From: Saccoglossus kowalevskii
Lineage: Eukaryota; Hemichordata; Enteropneusta; Harrimaniidae
Direction of reading: 5' to 3'
Assembly (NCBI RefSeq): GCF_000003605.2
Contig: NW_003155746.1
Coordinates: 212,412-241,128 of the forward strand
Length of the DNA stretch: 28,717 nt
In this document: piece after piece, positions 6,058 to 22,866 of the stretch
How the letters are laid out: each line of letters starts with the position of its first letter
Position numbering within the stretch: the first letter of the stretch is position 1
The notes under the pieces: model-generated
Told to the model about the DNA's origin: nothing
Databases searched by the model: none
What the model saw: only the letters and a program-made list of their open reading frames with translations
Translations under genes and position numbers: made by a program

Positions 6058-6195
6058 TCATTCATCTTTTTTTTTCTTAGACTTCTTCTTGTCTTTTAAT
6101 TGTTTAGCCGTCAATGAAAGTCTCTGTGCGTGCATTGCTAATGTTATGGTTCTTTCTTCCGTGTCTTGAAGCTTCTCTCCTCGTTCAACGGTGCC
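6058..6195 (-). CDS. SNARE-like gene, last coding exon
   Basis: The acceptor is TTATTTTTCAG at 6196, and 45 codons plus TGA follow. The exon encodes GTVERGEKLQDTEERT and onward through the hydrophobic +1 to +8 layers, then KDKKKSKKKKDE. Phase 0 matches exon 2. The exon boundary falls three residues before the zero-layer Arg, splitting the SNARE motif. The basic tail could touch acidic lipids, as in juxtamembrane segments of VAMPs. Confidence 0.68.
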   Translation of the reverse strand, partial: GTVERGEKLQDTEERTITLAMHAQRLSLTAKQLKDKKKSKKKKDE

Positions 6196-9100
6196 CTGAA
6201 AAATAAATAAATAATAAATAAAAAATAAAAAAATTGATAATGTTGTAATTTATTAAAAGAATAACCTGTAGACTTGTTGAATTAGTCCCAGGCATTTCAA
6301 ATTTCATTATGTAGAGTTTTGAGCGTGAATATGCTTCTTCAAAGTCAAATTTGTCAGTAAATGACCCCTGGCCAGTTGCTCTGACCTCTCTGTTAAGTCT
6401 GTGACACACTCCCCCAGAGTTAGATTCAACAATTGTTTGGCATTCATTACCGTCCACTGACCACAAGGCTTGATCAACAACAACTATGCTACTGGTTATC
6501 TATCACTTATAAAAAGTGTCTTTAACATTTATTAAAACTATTTTTTGATGGGCAATATTGACAGGAAAATGTAATTTTCAGTATTGTTGTTTGACAGAGA
6601 TATTGATGGATTATGATATATGGTGAACTGAAAGTTTTTTTCTTATAGCTTTTATCTAAAGATTTGTTCCACCACGCAATGACTTGCTTTGATACGCTAG
6701 TACACTGGTTGATTTGGTACATACAATAACAAACACTGCACATGCATATTAGTGGTTTTAATTTTTTTATCTAACGAATAATGTTGTGTAATTTAAGATG
6801 CATATTCTACAGTATCGAACGACAATATTTGGAAAATATTTTTTTTTCATCCATATCAAGGGTTCTTCTAGAAAAAAACTGCAAGAGGGAGCACTGCAAT
6901 TCAGCGGTGCCACCAAGGTAAGGGGGCGCATGACCATGCCATGAGGGCACTGCGTCCTGTTCCCTTGTTTAAAAAAATTCCTGCATATTGCAACTATAAT
7001 ATTATTCAATAAAAAGTTAAATTAGCAACTAATTTAATTAAAACTCTCAATATTCATATTTTAATTATTGGCAATATTTATACAATTATTACACAATAGT
7101 CAATGCTATGTACATGTCATACACATCATGTAATATAATGAATGTAAGCCACGTCTTTAACGTCAACTACTCTCATAACAGTTAATTACACACACACAAT
7201 CAATAAATATAATTACACACAGGGAAAACAATTAAAATAATAATTAATAATAATAATAATAATTAAGTTCAAGTAAATTAGGTTATACTAGGATGTTGAT
7301 TACACCTATTATAAGCCAGTTTTTCTGAAACATTTTTTCACATTAATTAATAATTTTGCAACATATTTTGTCTTTTTTAATTATTTTATTTTTATTTTGC
7401 TTACTTTTTTTAATATATTGGCTTTTACTAAAAAACATAATTAAATGATTGGAGCTTTAATTGTTTTATAGCTACATAAGGTGGCATAGTTACACTGTGA
7501 GTTCTATTTTTTTAAACAGTCAATATTTATATTTTTAAAATTGTCAATATTCATATTTTAAAATTGGCAATATTTTACAACATAAGGGTATGTACTATTT
7601 TCATCATCCTTTGATAGAACTACCGAATTTCTTATGACCACAGAAACAATATACATTCTATACTGATTATCTTATCAATATCAACATTTTTTTACAAAGC
7701 AAAAAAAAAAAAATTTGAAAGAAATGTACATGACACGAATAAAAAACAACATTGGAGTAGAGTCATGTTGTTTATTTTCTTGAGGTTTCTAATCTGTGTA
7801 TTGCTGACCAGGGAGTTAACAAACCAGCATCAGAACATAGGCAATTAATTCAGCAAATAGACATAAAATGAAAAGGTTACGACTTGATGACTCAGCAAAT
7901 AACAACACATGTCATATTGAGACAACACTTTCAAAAATTTTAGTCAAAAAAATAATTTAAAAACTCATAGAAAATACAAAAGCAGTAGCGAAGAAAAACT
8001 ACTGGCAATGAACGCGAAATTAAAATAAAATTACTACCGTAAAATCTGTATTAGAAGCCGCATCCCTAATAGAAGTCGCACCCATTTTTTTTGAATAATT
8101 GAGAACCAAAAATTCATCATTTCTCATATGTGTAGATGCTCTATTAGAAGCCGCATCCCCTCTGTTGCATTGTACCATTTTAATAGAAGCCGCGGTTTCT
8201 AATACAGATTTTACAGTAAATTGAAAGTGTAGGACAAAGATAAAATTAATATGAACAACACCATCTAATGCAGACATTACCTGGCAAGGTAGAAGCATTA
8301 TACATATGCCTGCTCAGTGATCAAAAAATTTCATCCGGCCATTTTGCCACATTTCCATTTTTCTTTGGAATTCATTCATTGGCCATAATTAGCACTCTTA
8401 TTTCTATAAACAAACATTCAACTCAGAAAGGCAAAGTAATTTTAGCCAACAAACTTAAATCTAAAATTTATTATATATAAAACTTGTTGTACAACGATGT
8501 ATTGTTTTCATTTGTGGGCTGTATTTTCCAAAGCTAATCTGAATGCTGTGCGGGTTGCTTATAACAACGCTTTTCGCGCTATTTTTTTATGTCAGTCGTA
8601 ACTTGAGTATTTCTGAAACTCAAATTTTAAATGGTGTACCCACTTTTTTAAGTGTTCTGCGCAAGTCCAGAGCTGGCTTTTACACAAGATTGACTTCTAG
8701 TGAGAATTGTTTAATTGTGGCAGCCATGTCTACTGACATGTTGAGGGACAGCAACTACTGGAAAAGGGTCTTTTCTGATATTTATAAGGCGCCTTATTTC
8801 TAATGTCTGTTTTGCTGTTGTGTTTTTAGCAATTTTCAAGGCATTGTTATGAGCTGCATGGTTCTCGAAATAAAAACTATTATATTATTATTATATATGA
8901 ATATATATTGATAAATTCAAAAATGAGCTCCAACTTTCAATTATACATAGCCCATCAATCAATGTTAGACAAACATTCTGACAGGAAAAGCACTCAAAAT
9001 AGGGCTGTGCTGCTGCAATGTTTCCACACTCCAAGTAAGCAGAGGTGTCAGCCACACTATGGAATCAGTTTCTTGTTCGCAAACATTAGGGGTGACGTTA

Positions 9101-12100
9101 AACCTCCTCCTTACTTCCTATTAGTTAAAAAGGTGATGAGTCAATGAAGTTTGGATTAGAAGGGCCGCAGCTGGAATGGTCACTTAAGCTACATTCTCAC
9201 ACGTCTAAAAAACGCCGGTGTTGAAACTGTTTTTTTGTTGTGAAAATATTAGCCTATCAGCTGAATTGTCTGCTCGCGTTCTCACTTAGTAAAAACACTG
9301 GTGTTTTGCGCCCTCAATGAATCATATCACGGAAAGGTCAATAAACAAATGAAAGGTCAATTGACAAAATGGCATCCCCTCTGGTATATGCATTTGCTTT
9401 GTTTCTGTTTTTCAGTGTGTTTTTACGCTCGAGAAGAAGGCAATGACGATTGATTAATGGAGATTTCGAAGAGCAAGAAATTGCCAACGTATCAGGTCGA
9501 ACCAGACTAAGAAATGATCGGTTCATGTTCACGCTATTCGCGTGTATGAATAACGCAACAATAGACCTGGCAACCTGAGCAATTTGGACTCGACAGCGCG
9601 GAAATAACTGGTGGGAAGAAATAGTGTTACGAACATGGGATAACTGAGATTGGCTAGAAAATTCAACTTGTAACTTCTGAAGCCATCTTGTGTAATGTCT
9701 AGCAGAAATAAGTCGGCGATAGAGGGCTTTTGGCCATCATATTGTGTTCACACGGCACATTCCATTGTGCAAGAGCGGGTGTGACAACAGCAAAACTGTC
9801 AAAAACGTCAGCGCCACAACGGCATATTCTGTTCACACACACATTTTAACAACTTTCTCAAATAAAAGGCGTTCTGACAACGACTTATTTCGTCTAATGA
9901 GAAAACCACTATATTGTCTTACAAACAATGGTCACATAAATATGTGAAAAAAATAGTTTGTTTAAAACAACGTTTGAAGAACCAAAATAAATATTAAAAT
10001 TTCTTGTCACCTTGCACAACCTGTTGCGCATGTGCAACATTTGTGTTGATAAACATTGATTTGTTTATATGAGACCCATATATCGCACAAACATGGCACG
10101 ATGACCACTCCCCATTAATTGATATTTCAGTCCCCTCTTCCCTTCTCTTTAATTCATTCGTTTCAAGGTAATTCACACGAGAACACAATCAAATTTGGCA
10201 TACTAAGTGCCTCATCTCTTCTCTTGCCTAAATCTACCCCACTTTTTCAAATGATACATCCCTTAGCATCTTTAATTAAAAGCTGGCAATGTAATATTTA
10301 CCTTGTACGCCTGAGAAGTAGCTTCAGCTGCAGACACTGTGTCTGGGTCACAATTTGCGGATCCACTGGTAACGTCTTCTTCATTTAAACTGGACTTTAC
10401 TGAAATAGAACAATTGAGTAAATAGTGTTAATTCATTAGGTAGTGTGTTCTTCAGCCATTGTCACCTATGGATATTCTATTGATGGTTTTGAGCCATATA
10501 TCATCTATGGGAATTCTATTGGTGGTCTTGAGCCACTGTCACCTATGGGAATTCTATTGGTGTTCTTAATCCACTGTTGTCTATTGGAATTCTATTGATA
10601 GTCTTGAGCCACTGTTACCTAAGGGAGTTCTATTGGTAGGCTTGAGCCACTGTCACATATGGGAATTCAATTGATAGTCTTGAGCCACTGTTACCTATGG
10701 TAATTCTATTGGTAGTCTTGAGCCACTGTTACCTATGGGAATTCTATTGGTAGGCTTGAGCCACTGTCACATATGGGAATTCTATAGGCAGTCATGAGCC
10801 ACTGTTACCTATGGTAATTCTATTGGTAGTCTTGAGCCACTGTCACATATGGGAATTCTATAGCTAGTCGTAGTCTTGAGCCACTGTTACCTATGGGAAT
10901 TCTATTGGTAGTCTTCAGCCACTGTTACCTATGGGAATTCTATTAGTAGACTTGAACCACTGTCACCTATGGGAATTCTATTGGTTGTCTTGAGCCACTG
11001 TAAGCTATGAGAATTCTATTAGTAGTCTTGAGCCACTGTCACCTATGGGAATTCTATTGGTAGTCTTGAGCCACTGTTGCCTATGGGAATTCTATTGGTT
11101 GTCTTGAGCCACTGTAAGCTATGAGAATTCTATTCGTAGTCTTGAGCCACTGTCACCTATGGGAATTCTATTGGTGGTTTTGAGCCACTGTCACCTACAT
11201 GCATGGAAAACTAACCAGACTATTAAACTCACTACAAATTTACTTTATTATTTAAAATTTAAAAGTGAAAAACTACCCAGATTCATGGCGTTCCACAATT
11301 ACATGATGCAACTCCCAGGGATTGAAAGCCTCCCCTTTAACATACTTGTATATTATATTATATTATATTATATTATATTATATTATATTATATTATATTA
11401 TATTATATTATATTATATTATATTATATTATATTATATTATATTATATTATATTATATTATAGTATATTATAGTATAGTATAGTATAGTATAGTATAGTA
11501 TATTATAGTATAGTATAGCAATATGTAAATTAGCTGATCAATATGTTAAGTTTGTAGCAAAAATCAGAATGTAGAATTTCAAGTGTGGTATTGCAGTTTG
11601 TTTTCATTAAAATTCATAGTAGGGCTAGAGGGAGGAGGGTCAATTCATAAATGAGGGGTAATTCCAATTCTCTAAGTAACCAGAAAATGATTGAAGTAGC
11701 TGGTTACCAGCGTTTAATTTAATAACAAGCCTGATTACTGGTATGTCAGTATTTAGTTTCAGTTTAGTTACTTGCACAACTTTTATAACATCCAACCCAC
11801 CCCTACAGTAAAATGGTTCATCTTTCTCTTTCTTTAAATAAATAAATGGATGTTTGTTTCATTACCACTACATGTGTGAGTGAAATGGCAGTGACACAAG
11901 AGTAAAAGCATTGTAATTTATATATATTGCCCCCCCCCCCCCGAAAATAGAAACACGACTTTGCACAGTGAATACAGAAGCACTGGATGTGATAAACAAT
12001 GTCCATGTGATTTATAAACTTTATATTATGTGAAGCTAAATATACACAATTTTGTTTTCAACAATGCACACATGTAAATAAAAATTGGCCGCCTACTCCC

Positions 12101-12840
12101 AGAATTTTTTTTTTTGAATTAGACAGGTTAGAGTCCATCATAAATAACTTTGAATACAGTTAGAGTTGTCAACAGATAGTGAGACAGCCATCTTTCAATG
12201 AAATGTCTCATTTGAGAATAAAAAGAATGAGTGGCAAAAACAGACATAATTTATTCAGAGTACCTGTTGCTACATGTATTAACAGACATCAATTGTGGAG
12301 CTTGTGTTTGTTAAAAAACGAGAACGTATTTGAAAAAAAAAAATACTTTTATATCATAGAAAGGTGAATTTGGTGTGGAAAACGTAAATTATTACATTGC
12401 TCATTTGAAAGTATATGCATATTAACAAAATATAAATGCATTTAAGACAGTTATTGCGGGTAACTACGTCACCGTTTTTATGAATAGATCAACCGGTATG
12501 TGCATGTTGAATACTCCCACTTTTGCATTTGGTTTCAATGAATGAATGTAAACACCAACTTACCGTTCGCGTTCTTTTTGCCGCTAAACCGTCCCTTCAT
12601 TTTCTTGAATGTCGATTTGGAGTGCATAGTCTTTGTTTCTGGGTGTTCCGCCGGGTCTTCCATGAGCGGCGTTTTTTCAGTCGATTTTTTTTGGAATATT
12701 TTCCTTAGTGTCGAGCCATACTTGCGCGCACTCTTTGGGCGTCCTGTCTCCAGCTCCGCCGCGGCAGGCTCGGAGGTTGGCGGAGCTTCTTCAGGTTCTT
12801 CTTCATTTTGTTGACAACAGCAGTCACAACAGTTGCCCAT
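6058..12840 (-). CDS. R-SNARE-like protein with N-terminal acylation motif (3-exon gene model)
   Basis: Exons at 12840-12564, 10399-10302 and 6195-6058 join in phase to give 170 residues. Residues 1-9 (MGNCCDCCC) fit Gly-2 N-myristoylation with adjacent Cys palmitoylation, so the protein is probably membrane-tethered on the cytosolic side. Residues 12-35 are Glu/Pro/Ala-rich, and about 36-92 are basic and Ser/Thr-rich. The C-terminal 60 residues resemble an R-SNARE motif: the sequence VERGEKL places Arg-130 at the ionic zero layer. The following heptad positions are L, T, T, L, A, L, A, L at offsets 4, 7, 11, 14, 18, 21, 25 and 28, the same register as VAMP2 and close to amisyn and tomosyn tails. 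The layers before the zero layer are small or polar (T, A, T, A, T), so the N-terminal half is weak. There is no C-terminal transmembrane segment; the protein ends in a Lys-rich tail. Known family role: R-SNARE motifs without an anchor (tomosyn, amisyn) bind syntaxin/SNAP-25 and restrain fusion. Function here is inferred. Confidence 0.6.
6266..6499 (-). CDS. Possible extra or alternative exon before the last SNARE-like exon
   Basis: This 78-codon open stretch has globular-protein composition (LWSVDGNECQTIVES..., KFDFEEAYSRSKLYIMKFEM). It ends at CTACAG|GTTATT, a weak donor. The following 70 bases to the exon 3 acceptor would form a minimal T-rich intron, and the phase (0) agrees with exon 3. 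No good phase-0 acceptor is visible at its upper end, so I could not connect it to exon 2. I do not recognise the domain. It may be an alternative first or internal exon, a decayed insertion, or chance. Confidence 0.3.
6500..8034. other. Intron of the SNARE-like gene, AT-rich, no further exon seen
   Basis: No exon with matching phase was found. The segment 7047-7580 carries several AATATTCATATTTTA / GGCAATATTT repeats, described separately. A minus-strand open frame at 6767-7009 contains an unrecognised stretch (LVAPLNCSAPSCSFFLEEP) that may come from a mobile element. Confidence 0.45.
7047..7580. repeat. Dispersed AT-rich direct repeats (TCAATATTCATATTTT...GGCAATATTT)
   Basis: Three related copies occur. 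Near 7047-7082 there is TCAATATTCATATTTT then ATTGGCAATATTTA. At about 7520-7541 there is a partial TCAATATTTATATTTT. At 7542-7577 there is TCAATATTCATATTTT then ATTGGCAATATTTT. The outer two are nearly the same over about 35 bases, so they may be the termini of one inserted element of about 530 bases in direct orientation (LTR-like) or a local duplication. Confidence 0.5.
8035..8218. mobile_element. 184-base MITE with 27-base terminal inverted repeats
   Basis: The left end TACCGTAAAATCTGTATTAG (8035 onward) and the right end CTAATACAGATTTTACAGTA (to 8218) are inverted copies, with 25 of 27 bases matching. The outer TA on each side could be a TA target duplication, as made by Tc1/mariner-type elements. 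The inside holds four same-direction copies of TAGAAGCCGC-type sequence (near 8055, 8070, 8144 and 8183). There is no transposase, so it is a non-autonomous element. The 92-codon minus-strand open frame across it is an artefact of the element. Confidence 0.85.
8497..8885 (+). pseudogene. 3' end of a non-LTR retrotransposon (LINE ORF2 C-terminus), decayed
   Basis: Two frames together read as the C-terminal tail of a LINE reverse-transcriptase ORF. Frame 1 (8497-8601) gives WAVFSKANLNAVRVAYNNAF and a stop. Frame 2 (about 8610-8803) gives NGVPTFLSVLRKSRAGFYTR then LTSSENCLIVAAM and a stop. The pattern LNAVRVAYNNAFR followed by GVPTF..LLR...F..RL.SS.N is typical of CR1/Jockey/RTE-like ORF2 ends. 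A short 3' UTR ends in AATAAAAACTATTATATTATTATT, a simple 3' repeat as these elements have. The frameshift, the stop and the missing 5' part show a dead, 5'-truncated copy. Confidence 0.75.
8886..10301. other. Intron of the SNARE-like gene, probably old transposon sequence
   Basis: No exon was recognised. Two AAAAACRCYGGTGTT motifs (near 9207 and 9291) and repeated GTTCACACRC motifs (near 9745 and 9832) suggest debris of mobile elements, but I could not define ends. Short open frames such as 8908-9147 (plus) have no recognisable content. Confidence 0.4.
10302..10399 (-). CDS. SNARE-like gene, coding exon 2
   Basis: The acceptor TCTATTTCAG at 10400 and donor AAG|GTAAAT at 10302/10301 bound 98 bases. 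The leading TA completes the Gly/Val codon left by exon 1 (phase 1), and 32 codons (KSSLNEED...TSQAYK) follow without a stop. The exon ends in phase 0. It encodes an acidic linker and the N-terminal half of the SNARE-like helix, with a Pro about 19 residues before the zero-layer Arg that probably caps the helix. Confidence 0.68.
10450..11197. repeat. Minisatellite, about 20 units of 38 bases
   Basis: The unit is close to CTTGAGCCACTGTYACCTAT followed by GGGAATTCTATTGGTAGT. About 20 copies run head to tail, with scattered substitutions and a few indels. Most units carry an EcoRI site (GAATTC). Two alternating forms (GTTACC and GTCACC) and repeated multi-unit blocks suggest unequal exchange. 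The array lies in intron 1 of the minus-strand SNARE-like gene and ends only about 50 bases upstream of the exon 2 acceptor. Confidence 0.93.
11347..11518. repeat. Pentanucleotide microsatellite (TATTA)n with (TATAG)n tail
   Basis: About 23 near-perfect TATTA units run from 11347 to about 11460, then a variant block with TATAG units runs to 11518. The open frame through it is meaningless. The length is likely to vary between individuals. Confidence 0.95.
11519..12563. other. First part of SNARE-like intron 1, no exon seen
   Basis: This is ordinary AT-rich intron sequence. It includes a run of 13 C at 11930-11942 and a T9 run near 12107. No additional exon of compatible phase was recognised; exon 1 (phase 1) joins exon 2 directly. 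Confidence 0.5.
12564..12840 (-). CDS. SNARE-like gene, coding exon 1
   Basis: The ATG at 12840 starts MGNCCDCCCQQ. An upstream in-frame extension would need a non-ATG start, and Gly-2 must follow the initiator for myristoylation, so this start is preferred. The exon has 92 codons plus one base and ends at a consensus donor, ACG|GTAAGT. The GC-richer codons contrast with the AT-rich introns. Confidence 0.72.
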
Positions 12841-21023: not shown

Positions 21024-22866
21024 GTAAGACAATAATTGAATTAAATTAATGTGTATGCACTGATTAAAGAAGGGATGTGAATATCTTTACAGAATTATAT
21101 TTGATATGCTTTATCATAAAATAATGCAGTATTCGTTCGATAAAATAGTGCGCTTCAAATGACCTGTATATATAAGTCATTCAGTACAGCATTGCGGTTT
21201 TGTTGAAAGAATAGTACAGCGCACTTTATCTATGACAATTTTTCTAAGGAACTAATCGAAACAACATGCTCAGAATTAGACATGATTGTTTTTTCAAACA
21301 TTCGAACGCCAAAGTTCTATATATATAATATATATATGTGTATATATTTTAGTATTAGTTTTATAAAAACAAAATTTATTGGTTGAAAGAAACTAAAATC
21401 AGAGAAACAGGTTCGACATTTTTGGGGAGTACCCTTTACTGTGGGAACTGGTACCCTAAATATGACGTGCAATTATCATGTGTCAAATATGATATACATT
21501 TTTCTTGTGATGGTGAATTTGTTAATGATCGTGTCTGTTCGATCGTTTTGTTAATTGAAAAAAGTGACAAACCGATGTTCATGGGCAGTGCTGACTAATG
21601 TAGGCCGACATTTGTAACCGTGCAGATAAATGATGCACGAATACAAAATGTATTTATTTTTTCGTAGACCAATTGAATGCTCCGGGTTATCAAAAGAGCA
21701 CCAGAGAGCAGCAAAGGTCCATGGAAGCTCAAGAAACAAATCATACAACAGTGGAAATTGCTCGGAAGGTTGAAAATCCCACCCAAAATCCCGAGATGGT
21801 AATTAATTAGAGCATATTTGAAACTGTGTGTGTTTTGGCACTGTTCTTTTATAAACGTTACAACGCCATATTGTATATGATGTTTGATTGAAAGCTATCG
21901 TGATAGGGGGCTGGGTCTTACTGTCGAACCCATCTGCATGAAAGTATGAGAAAAGTGATATTTTTGAAAATTGCTATTTTTTCAATATATATATATAAAT
22001 GTACATGTTTACATATTTAACACACTCTTGTTTTCCTGTTTTCACAGTATGTGCGGGAAAATGTCAAAACTATCACATATGATTGTCAAAAGGTTAGCCA
22101 ACAACGAATGGAAACTGCCAGACAAGCCTGCTTGGCTAACAACATAACGCCATCGAAGAAACCAAGGCACATTGGCTCGCTTATTGTTTCAAACAAATAC
22201 AAATTTATGTTTGAGTTGACTCCTAAAGTCTCATCTACATGTTGGAAGCATTTCTTGCATGATGTTGTTGATCCACAATGTATGGGAAATGTGTACGGAG
22301 ATGGAATGTTGAACACTGTCAAATTAAATAAGACCATAGAGGAGTTAGAAGAATATAAAAAAACGATATTTTTCCGGGAACCCCTGGAACGACTTGTATC
22401 CTACTACTATTCCATTGTGCATTACACGTCGGTGTTTGCAGGTAGGAATAAAGAGTTCAATGACCTCATCATCAGAAGTGGAATCCGTAATCACAGTGTG
22501 ATGCACAGCAAGCCTAAGGGAGATATTTACAATATTACATTCTCGGAGTTTGCACAGATGGTTCTTTTTTACAAAGCTAATTCCAGTATTTCAATGTCTG
22601 GTCACTACCAAAGAGTGGGGTATAAATTATGCCTTCACGATTATGACTTTATTGGCCACTTTGAGACCCTTGCTGAGGACGCTGAATGTTTTCTCAAACT
22701 AATCAATATCGCTGATCATTACAGTTTTCCAGAAATACATGTACAGAAGGGCAACGTCAGATTCAACGAATCATTGAAAAGTTTGCCCCGAAACATCCTC
22801 AGAGATTTAATCGAATTTTATCGATTGGATTATGAAATTCTTGGGTATAAAATTCCAAAATTTTAA
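20915..22866 (+). CDS. Golgi carbohydrate sulfotransferase, HNK-1ST/CHST8-14 family (3-exon gene model)
   Basis: Exons at 20915-21023, 21668-21798 and 22048-22866 join in phase to encode 352 residues, the usual size for this family. It is expected to transfer sulfate from PAPS to a sugar hydroxyl on glycoprotein or proteoglycan glycans in the Golgi lumen. The layout is type II: a short basic cytosolic tail, a signal anchor at about residues 12-26 (LLILVIVTLTFLVVY), and a Gln/Thr-rich stem to about 117. The catalytic domain follows, opening with RHIGSLIV. The 5'-phosphosulfate loop is TPKVSSTCWK (about 138-147) and the 3'-phosphate motif is FFREPLERLVSYYY (about 188-201), with Glu where family members often have Asp or Asn. 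Further family signatures are YDFIGHFETLAEDAECFL and the end FYRLDYEILGYKIP. Several N-x-S/T sites occur. Substrate specificity cannot be read from sequence; chondroitin/dermatan, HNK-1 and GalNAc-4 transferases all share these motifs. Confidence 0.9.
21668..21798 (+). CDS. Sulfotransferase coding exon 2 (stem)
   Basis: The acceptor TTTTTTCGTAG precedes 21668. AC completes an Asp codon with the G of exon 1, and 43 codons follow (QLNAPGYQKSTREQQRS...). The donor is GAGATG|GTAATT and the exit phase is 0. It encodes the hydrophilic luminal stem, with an NHT glycosylation site. Confidence 0.82.
22048..22866 (+). CDS. Sulfotransferase coding exon 3 (catalytic domain)
   Basis: The acceptor is CTGTTTTCACAG at 22047. 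The exon is 272 codons plus TAA, in phase 0 with exon 2, and carries the whole sulfotransferase domain on one exon, as is common in this family. It begins Tyr-Val-Arg-Glu-Asn, so no initiator is needed here. There is no frameshift or internal stop. Confidence 0.93.
   Translation, partial: YVRENVKTITYDCQKVSQQRMETARQACLANNITPSKKPRHIGSLIVSNKYKFMFELTPKVSSTCWKHFLHDVVDPQCMGNVYGDGMLNTVKLNKTIEELEEYKKTIFFREPLERLVSYYYSIVHYTSVFAGRNKEFNDLIIRSGIRNHSVMHSKPKGDIYNITFSEFAQMVLFYKANSSISMSGHYQRVGYKLCLHDYDFIGHFETLAEDAECFLKLINIADHYSFPEIHVQKGNVRFNESLKSLPRNILRDLIEFYRLDYEILGYKIPKF

Follow-up and report, generated by a model that had tools for sequence, protein, structure and literature searches.

A putative three-exon gene for a small anchorless protein ending in half an R-SNARE motif in the hemichordate Saccoglossus kowalevskii

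R-SNARE-derived regulators without a membrane anchor are already known. In tomosyn (STXBP5, R.Reg) the C-terminal R-SNARE motif lacks a membrane anchor, and a polybasic end comes after it (PMC2639358; PMC10965968), and both the motif and the polybasic domain are reported to be needed (PMC10965968). Amisyn (STXBP6) is small and combines a membrane-binding N-terminal part with a C-terminal R-SNARE motif and no membrane span; one survey noted no insect similarity for it (PMC2374702). Anchoring from the N-terminus, with no C-terminal span, is described for the fungal protein Vam7 (PMC2639358), which is however a Q-SNARE with a PX domain as anchor. The CD225 proteins IFITM3 and PRRT2 are described as regulators that are palmitoylated and contain a SNARE-like motif (PMC11730294), but they are membrane-embedded and carry a mimic domain instead of an R-SNARE exon. 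A further point of comparison is a laboratory reagent, the Vc peptide (VAMP2 49-96, layers -2 to +8), which represents the C-terminal half of the R-SNARE motif and ends at layer +8. According to the passages cited here, this peptide binds t-SNAREs and orders their C-terminal part, acts in vitro as a roadblock to VAMP2 zippering, is displaced by VAMP2 on relaxation and, when pre-bound to t-SNAREs, greatly enhances fusion (PMC4744192). Here we describe a predicted gene on the minus strand of a 28,717-nucleotide stretch of Saccoglossus kowalevskii DNA (contig NW_003155746.1, positions 212,412 to 241,128; C4513:212412-241128 in our numbering), referred to below as the window. We tentatively propose that its three exons encode a 170-residue non-fusogenic regulatory R-SNARE working as a tethered Vc-like regulator, a reading that we consider quite possible.

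The three exons have GT/AG borders and join in compatible phase, giving 513 nt that encode 170 residues and a stop codon (Table 1). This model was first put forward in a first-pass annotation of the window, and its coordinates, borders and phases are borne out by the sequence. The predicted protein starts with MGNCCDCCC, continues as a low-complexity acidic/basic linker and finishes with a C-terminal helix and a lysine-rich end. The exon 1 ATG is preceded, at a distance of 30 bases, by an in-frame stop. Splice sites were ranked with simple consensus matrices, and the support for the junctions is computational: the exon 1 donor (ACG/GTAAGT) is third among 1706 GT sites, the exon 3 acceptor is eighth among 1479 AG sites, and exon 3 comes first among 202 terminal-exon candidates. 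Exon 2, fifth among 29 internal-exon candidates, has weaker sites, its acceptor standing at rank 60 of 1479 and its donor at rank 23 of 1706. When the 170-residue sequence was searched against the animal's own genome (572 Mb, 4830 contigs), precisely these three exons were returned (E 2.4e-56 for exon 1 and 1.3e-12 for exon 2), and no close paralogue was found at E<=0.001, the sensitivity of that search.

An R-SNARE origin of exon 3 is well supported by sequence comparison. Synaptobrevin (PF00957) was the sole Pfam family found at E<=10 for the full model (E 0.0008, 19.6 bits), and exon 3 alone matched it with E 1.4e-4 and 22.0 bits; the corresponding scores of the tomosyn tail and of an amisyn sequence are 27.3 and 29.5 bits. 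Of 140 shuffles made, 40 that preserve the layer positions were scanned against Pfam, and none of these matched PF00957. A scan of the whole window returned only PF00957 (E 0.0026) and AAA_lid_1 (E 1.4) from the three minus-strand frames, and only Sulfotransfer_2 from the plus-strand frames. Across the genome as a whole, 13 matches to PF00957 were obtained at E<=10, four of them above the cut-off; exon 3 is sixth by score (22.9 bits, with an alignment that extends beyond the stop codon), in the company of exons that by eye are VAMP7-like, Sec22-like and brevin-like, while the last two of the 13 look like chance. The structure model of exon 3 is a single helix spanning residues 3-44 of 45 (mean pLDDT 88.8). 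The profile check that the first-pass annotation had suggested yielded a SNARE match in Pfam and in the genome scan, one that the scanned shuffles did not reproduce, rather than an ordinary coiled coil without one. Among viral contigs 23 stretches fitted a short pattern, and none was confirmed as a relative.

The zero-layer arginine (Arg130) is followed at layers +1 to +8 by L,T,T,L,A,L,A,L. The corresponding layers of VAMP2, in the sequence that we take as our reference, are L,L,A,L,A,F,A,L. Five of the eight are therefore identical, whereas layers +2 and +3 are threonines in place of leucine and alanine, the +3 threonine being common to tomosyn. The residues listed in the first-pass annotation were thus correct, but its wording that they match VAMP2 layer for layer went too far. 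In layers -7 to -1 the residues are S,C,T,A,T,A,T, which do not make up a complete 16-layer motif (-7 to +8), so that the SNARE-like part, judged by its layers, is the C-terminal half only, from 0 to +8. The Pfam alignment begins at profile position 23-27, and no N-terminal half motif in the introns scored higher than what 10 shuffled introns gave. No membrane span was found, the highest 19-residue Kyte-Doolittle mean of the 170-residue model being 0.08; the chain ends in KKKKDE and lacks both the C-terminal membrane span and the lipid site of fusogenic R-SNAREs. The absence of a transmembrane segment, which had been noted earlier, agrees with this hydropathy maximum, and the C-terminal half-SNARE with its polybasic tail is supported by the Pfam match, the shuffles and the layers.

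At the other end of the protein, residues 4-9 hold five cysteines. Residues 36-55 form the sole helix in a low-confidence structure model of exon 1 (mean pLDDT 60.0), and their hydrophobic moment of 0.48 was reached by 2.6% of 2000 shuffles. A second basic stretch, residues 74-92, is not amphipathic as a helix (moment 0.08, attained by 92% of shuffles). It looks like a MARCKS-type effector stretch; the 170-residue model gave no Pfam match to a MARCKS/GAP-43 family profile at E<=10.

Table 1. Predicted exons and sequence features of the gene model (window positions)
Feature	Position	Strand	Description
Exon 1	12564..12840	-	residues 1-92 and first base of codon 93
Cysteine cluster CCDCCC	12814..12831	-	codons 4-9, predicted palmitoylation site
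Basic amphipathic stretch KSARKYGSTLRKIFQKKSTE	12676..12735	-	codons 36-55, candidate membrane-binding helix
Second basic stretch SKSTFKKMKGRFSGKKNAN	12565..12621	-	codons 74-92, net +7
Exon 2	10302..10399	-	acidic/polar residues 93-125, without SNARE-like layers
Exon 3	6058..6195	-	residues 126-170 and stop; R-SNARE-derived helix
R-SNARE layers 0 (Arg130) to +8 (Leu158)	6097..6183	-	layers as given in the text
Lysine-rich C-terminal end KDKKKSKKKKDE	6061..6096	-	codons 159-170, net +5

Comparison of the tail with individual R-SNAREs gave similar scores for a brevin of the same genome (61), tomosyn (60), VAMP4 (58), the amisyn sequence (57) and a second anchorless exon of the same genome, L013, described below (54), followed by VAMP2 (46) and a Sec22-like protein (29). 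On these scores, the sequence of the tail alone does not decide the place of the gene among R-SNAREs, while its architecture points to the anchorless regulatory ones. The tomosyn arrangement of an anchorless C-terminal R-SNARE motif and a polybasic end is found here for half a motif, and exon 3 also shares with tomosyn the +3 threonine and the pattern ERG.KL..EERT. However, the SNARE motif of tomosyn is complete and comes with large WD40 domains at the N-terminus, in contrast to the 170 residues and half a motif here, and no WD40/LLGL region was matched on the minus strand of the window in the Pfam frame scan. The tail of the amisyn sequence is identical to that of exon 3 at 14 of 30 positions. 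That sequence carries a Sec3-type PH domain and its Pfam match starts at profile position 10, whereas the present protein has a cysteine cluster and the second half only; no Sec3-type PIP2-binding PH domain was found in the model by Pfam or in the window frames. The Vc peptide ends at the same layer but is an untethered reagent that starts at -2, where this protein has Ala and Thr at -2 and -1. In the open-licence PMC literature, covered as listings and the beginnings of abstracts, we found no description of an N-terminally acylated half R-SNARE, which does not prove its absence.

The mechanism that we tentatively prefer can be outlined as follows. The half motif of this protein is nearly that of Vc, to which a lysine-rich end and a possible N-terminal membrane tether are added. 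Palmitoylated cysteines, together with the basic stretches, would attach the protein to a membrane, which is probably the target membrane. Since the N-terminal half of the motif is missing, that part of the groove would stay open, and VAMP could start zippering but would have to displace the protein in order to finish. In this way the acceptor complex would be kept ready and fusion delayed, as expected of a tethered Vc. The protein itself should be unable to fuse membranes because no anchor follows its helix.

Several observations weigh against this proposal. The Pfam score of exon 3 (22.0 bits) lies below the curated PF00957 cut-off of 26.4, and single shuffles hit other Pfam families, the best being CCDC28 with E 0.0016, so that an E-value of about 0.001 cannot, on its own, be relied on for a peptide of this kind. 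Matches of exon 3 in PDB are weak, with tomosyn 1urq as the best (E 0.2) and VAMP4 at E 0.84; the full 170-residue model finds tomosyn at E 0.74. By way of scale, the tomosyn tail itself reaches VAMP2 at E 0.024 at best. Given Thr at +2/+3 and Thr/Ala at -1/-2, binding of the half motif may be weaker than that of Vc, whose layers begin at -2. The transcript with its two junctions is predicted, and the exon 2 splice sites are only fair. At the N-terminus, GNCCDC, read from Gly2, fails the N-myristoylation pattern PROSITE PS00008, since Asp6 occupies the fifth place. The cysteine-rich start reported in the first-pass annotation stands, but its dual acylation is doubtful as regards myristoylation; palmitoylation alone stays plausible as an anchor, and acylation of any kind is a guess. 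Finally, the tomosyn SNARE domain alone is reported to have variable effects in cells, and in the cited passages release in C. elegans was not rescued by it, nor was it inhibited (PMC3195084). It may be, then, that such a helix does little when separated from its other domains.

Among the alternatives, a classic decoy of the tomosyn/amisyn type, whose helix would replace VAMP in a complete four-helix bundle and take acceptors out of use, seems somewhat unlikely. The absence of a membrane span and the position of tomosyn as the best PDB match are consistent with it, and the tomosyn SNARE motif is reported to make ternary complexes with syntaxin and SNAP-25; the same source, in the part cited, however describes a challenge to simple competition with VAMP2 even for tomosyn (PMC10965968). 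The first-pass annotation had likewise suggested a fusion inhibitor or assembly decoy. A plain decoy is not the only mechanism to consider, because the retained half is close to Vc, which is described as both blocking VAMP2 zippering in vitro and, when pre-bound to the t-SNAREs, enhancing fusion (PMC4744192).

It is quite improbable that the protein is instead a membrane adaptor of the MARCKS/GAP-43 type, in which the acylated, basic and disordered part would do the work and the SNARE exon would be a degenerate leftover or mere targeting helix. The cysteine cluster, an acidic stretch, two basic stretches (net +8 and +7) and the low confidence of the exon 1 structure model would suit such an adaptor, but the likeness to MARCKS appears compositional, since Synaptobrevin is the only family reported by Pfam, and the zero-layer Arg and five VAMP2-identical layers have been retained. 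An error in the gene model, with exon 1 and/or exon 2 taken from another transcript or the SNARE exon joining exons outside the model, is equally improbable: the fifth rank of exon 2, the computational nature of the splice support and the repeat-bearing introns would allow it, but every junction is in phase, the exon 1 donor and exon 3 acceptor are among the best of their kind, and the minus strand of the window holds no other convincing Pfam domain.

The introns, of about 2.2 and 4.1 kb, contain tandem and dispersed repeats. A minisatellite in intron 1 (window 10449-11197) consists of 19.5 copies of a 38-base unit and, read on the minus strand, stops some 50 bases short of exon 2, and a 5-base repeat array lies at window 11349-11517. 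Part of a dispersed repeat occupies window 6260-6500 on the minus strand, just upstream of exon 3, and reads ERSEQL in one frame by chance. This DNA has two partial genomic copies with 75 and 84% identity, one of them beside a head that looks tRNA-derived by eye. A candidate exon for the N-terminal half of the motif, 6456-6330 (reading ...GECVTDLTERSEQLARG...), lies before exon 3 and was rejected as part of this repeat. It holds one of only two zero-layer-like signatures that the window contains in six frames, against an expectation of 0.05 derived from 100 mononucleotide shuffles; it gave no Pfam or PDB match and has no good splice sites, and its score of 28 falls within the range of 25-33 obtained from 10 shuffled introns. 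On the plus strand, a carbohydrate sulfotransferase-like single-exon frame is located at window 22021-22866 (Sulfotransfer_2, E 2.2e-22).

A second anchorless R-SNARE-like terminal exon was found in the same genome at C2233:48851-48708 on the minus strand (L013, also L039). It reads AQRERGEKLGRTVDQTEVMADRASVFSRTTKALEKKHRDKAKSWWPF, ends in KSWWPF, has no membrane span, scores 22.1 bits with PF00957, which is nearly the score of exon 3, and aligns with exon 3 at 12 of 26 identical residues. The acceptors of both exons lie 12 bases before the zero-layer Arg codon and in the same phase, and an AG acceptor at that position occurs in none of the five other R-SNARE exons of this genome that were examined. 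Since the best candidate acceptor of the VAMP7-like exon (L014) is only 2 bases further upstream, though its phase differs, and since another acceptor is possible for L013 itself 6 bases on, the coincidence of introns is suggestive only. Two candidates for the preceding exon of L013 were obtained, 49059-48932 (score 23.3) and 50962-50724 (score 20.8); we prefer the latter despite its lower score, for the sole reason that the heptads continue there. No start exon was found for this gene, which has two assembly gaps upstream. A bolder form of our proposal is that exon 3 belongs to a natural, gene-encoded Vc peptide, tied to the membrane by fatty acids from its N-terminus, which would ready acceptors and be peeled off by VAMP; on the strength of the shared intron place, it and L013 would then belong to an undescribed family. 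We regard this as unlikely.

We also considered, and rejected, that exon 3 might be the terminal exon of tomosyn: the LLGL matches lie on other contigs, C1944, where they look Lgl-like, and C3981, where they look tomosyn-like, both judged by eye, and tomosyn thus lies elsewhere. A tomosyn tail, searched against the genome, returned only exon 3 (E 4.92, 45% identity). The gene on C3981 that looks tomosyn-like by eye (L030, L032, L037, L038 and L033) has recognisable exons followed by a 19-kb assembly gap (C3981:314256-333474). No SNARE exon of this gene was found; it may lie in the gap. As regards amisyn, PF15277 gave one sub-threshold match in the genome (E 0.92). We also observed that the mitochondrial COX1 (L040, C4830:13523-14863, minus strand) has seven TGA codons inside the match. 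ATA falls there at positions where Ile is usual, unlike in the standard invertebrate code 5, and these codons hint at an echinoderm/hemichordate-like or cnidarian-like code.

In tomosyn, with its large extra domains, and in amisyn, with its PH domain, it is hard to tell what the SNARE helix contributes by itself. A protein this small, with little more than a lipid-type anchor, a linker, half a motif and a lysine-rich end, would offer a natural minimal system for testing whether the C-terminal half, tethered from the far end, primes, clamps or acts as a decoy. It raises the question of whether the effect of the Vc peptide, known as the effect of a reagent, has a counterpart in cells. If the bolder reading, which we regard as unlikely, is true, this would be an R-SNARE trimmed by evolution to the half with which cell-free fusion studies prime the syntaxin/SNAP-25 acceptor, serving as a displaceable primer and clamp of fusion.
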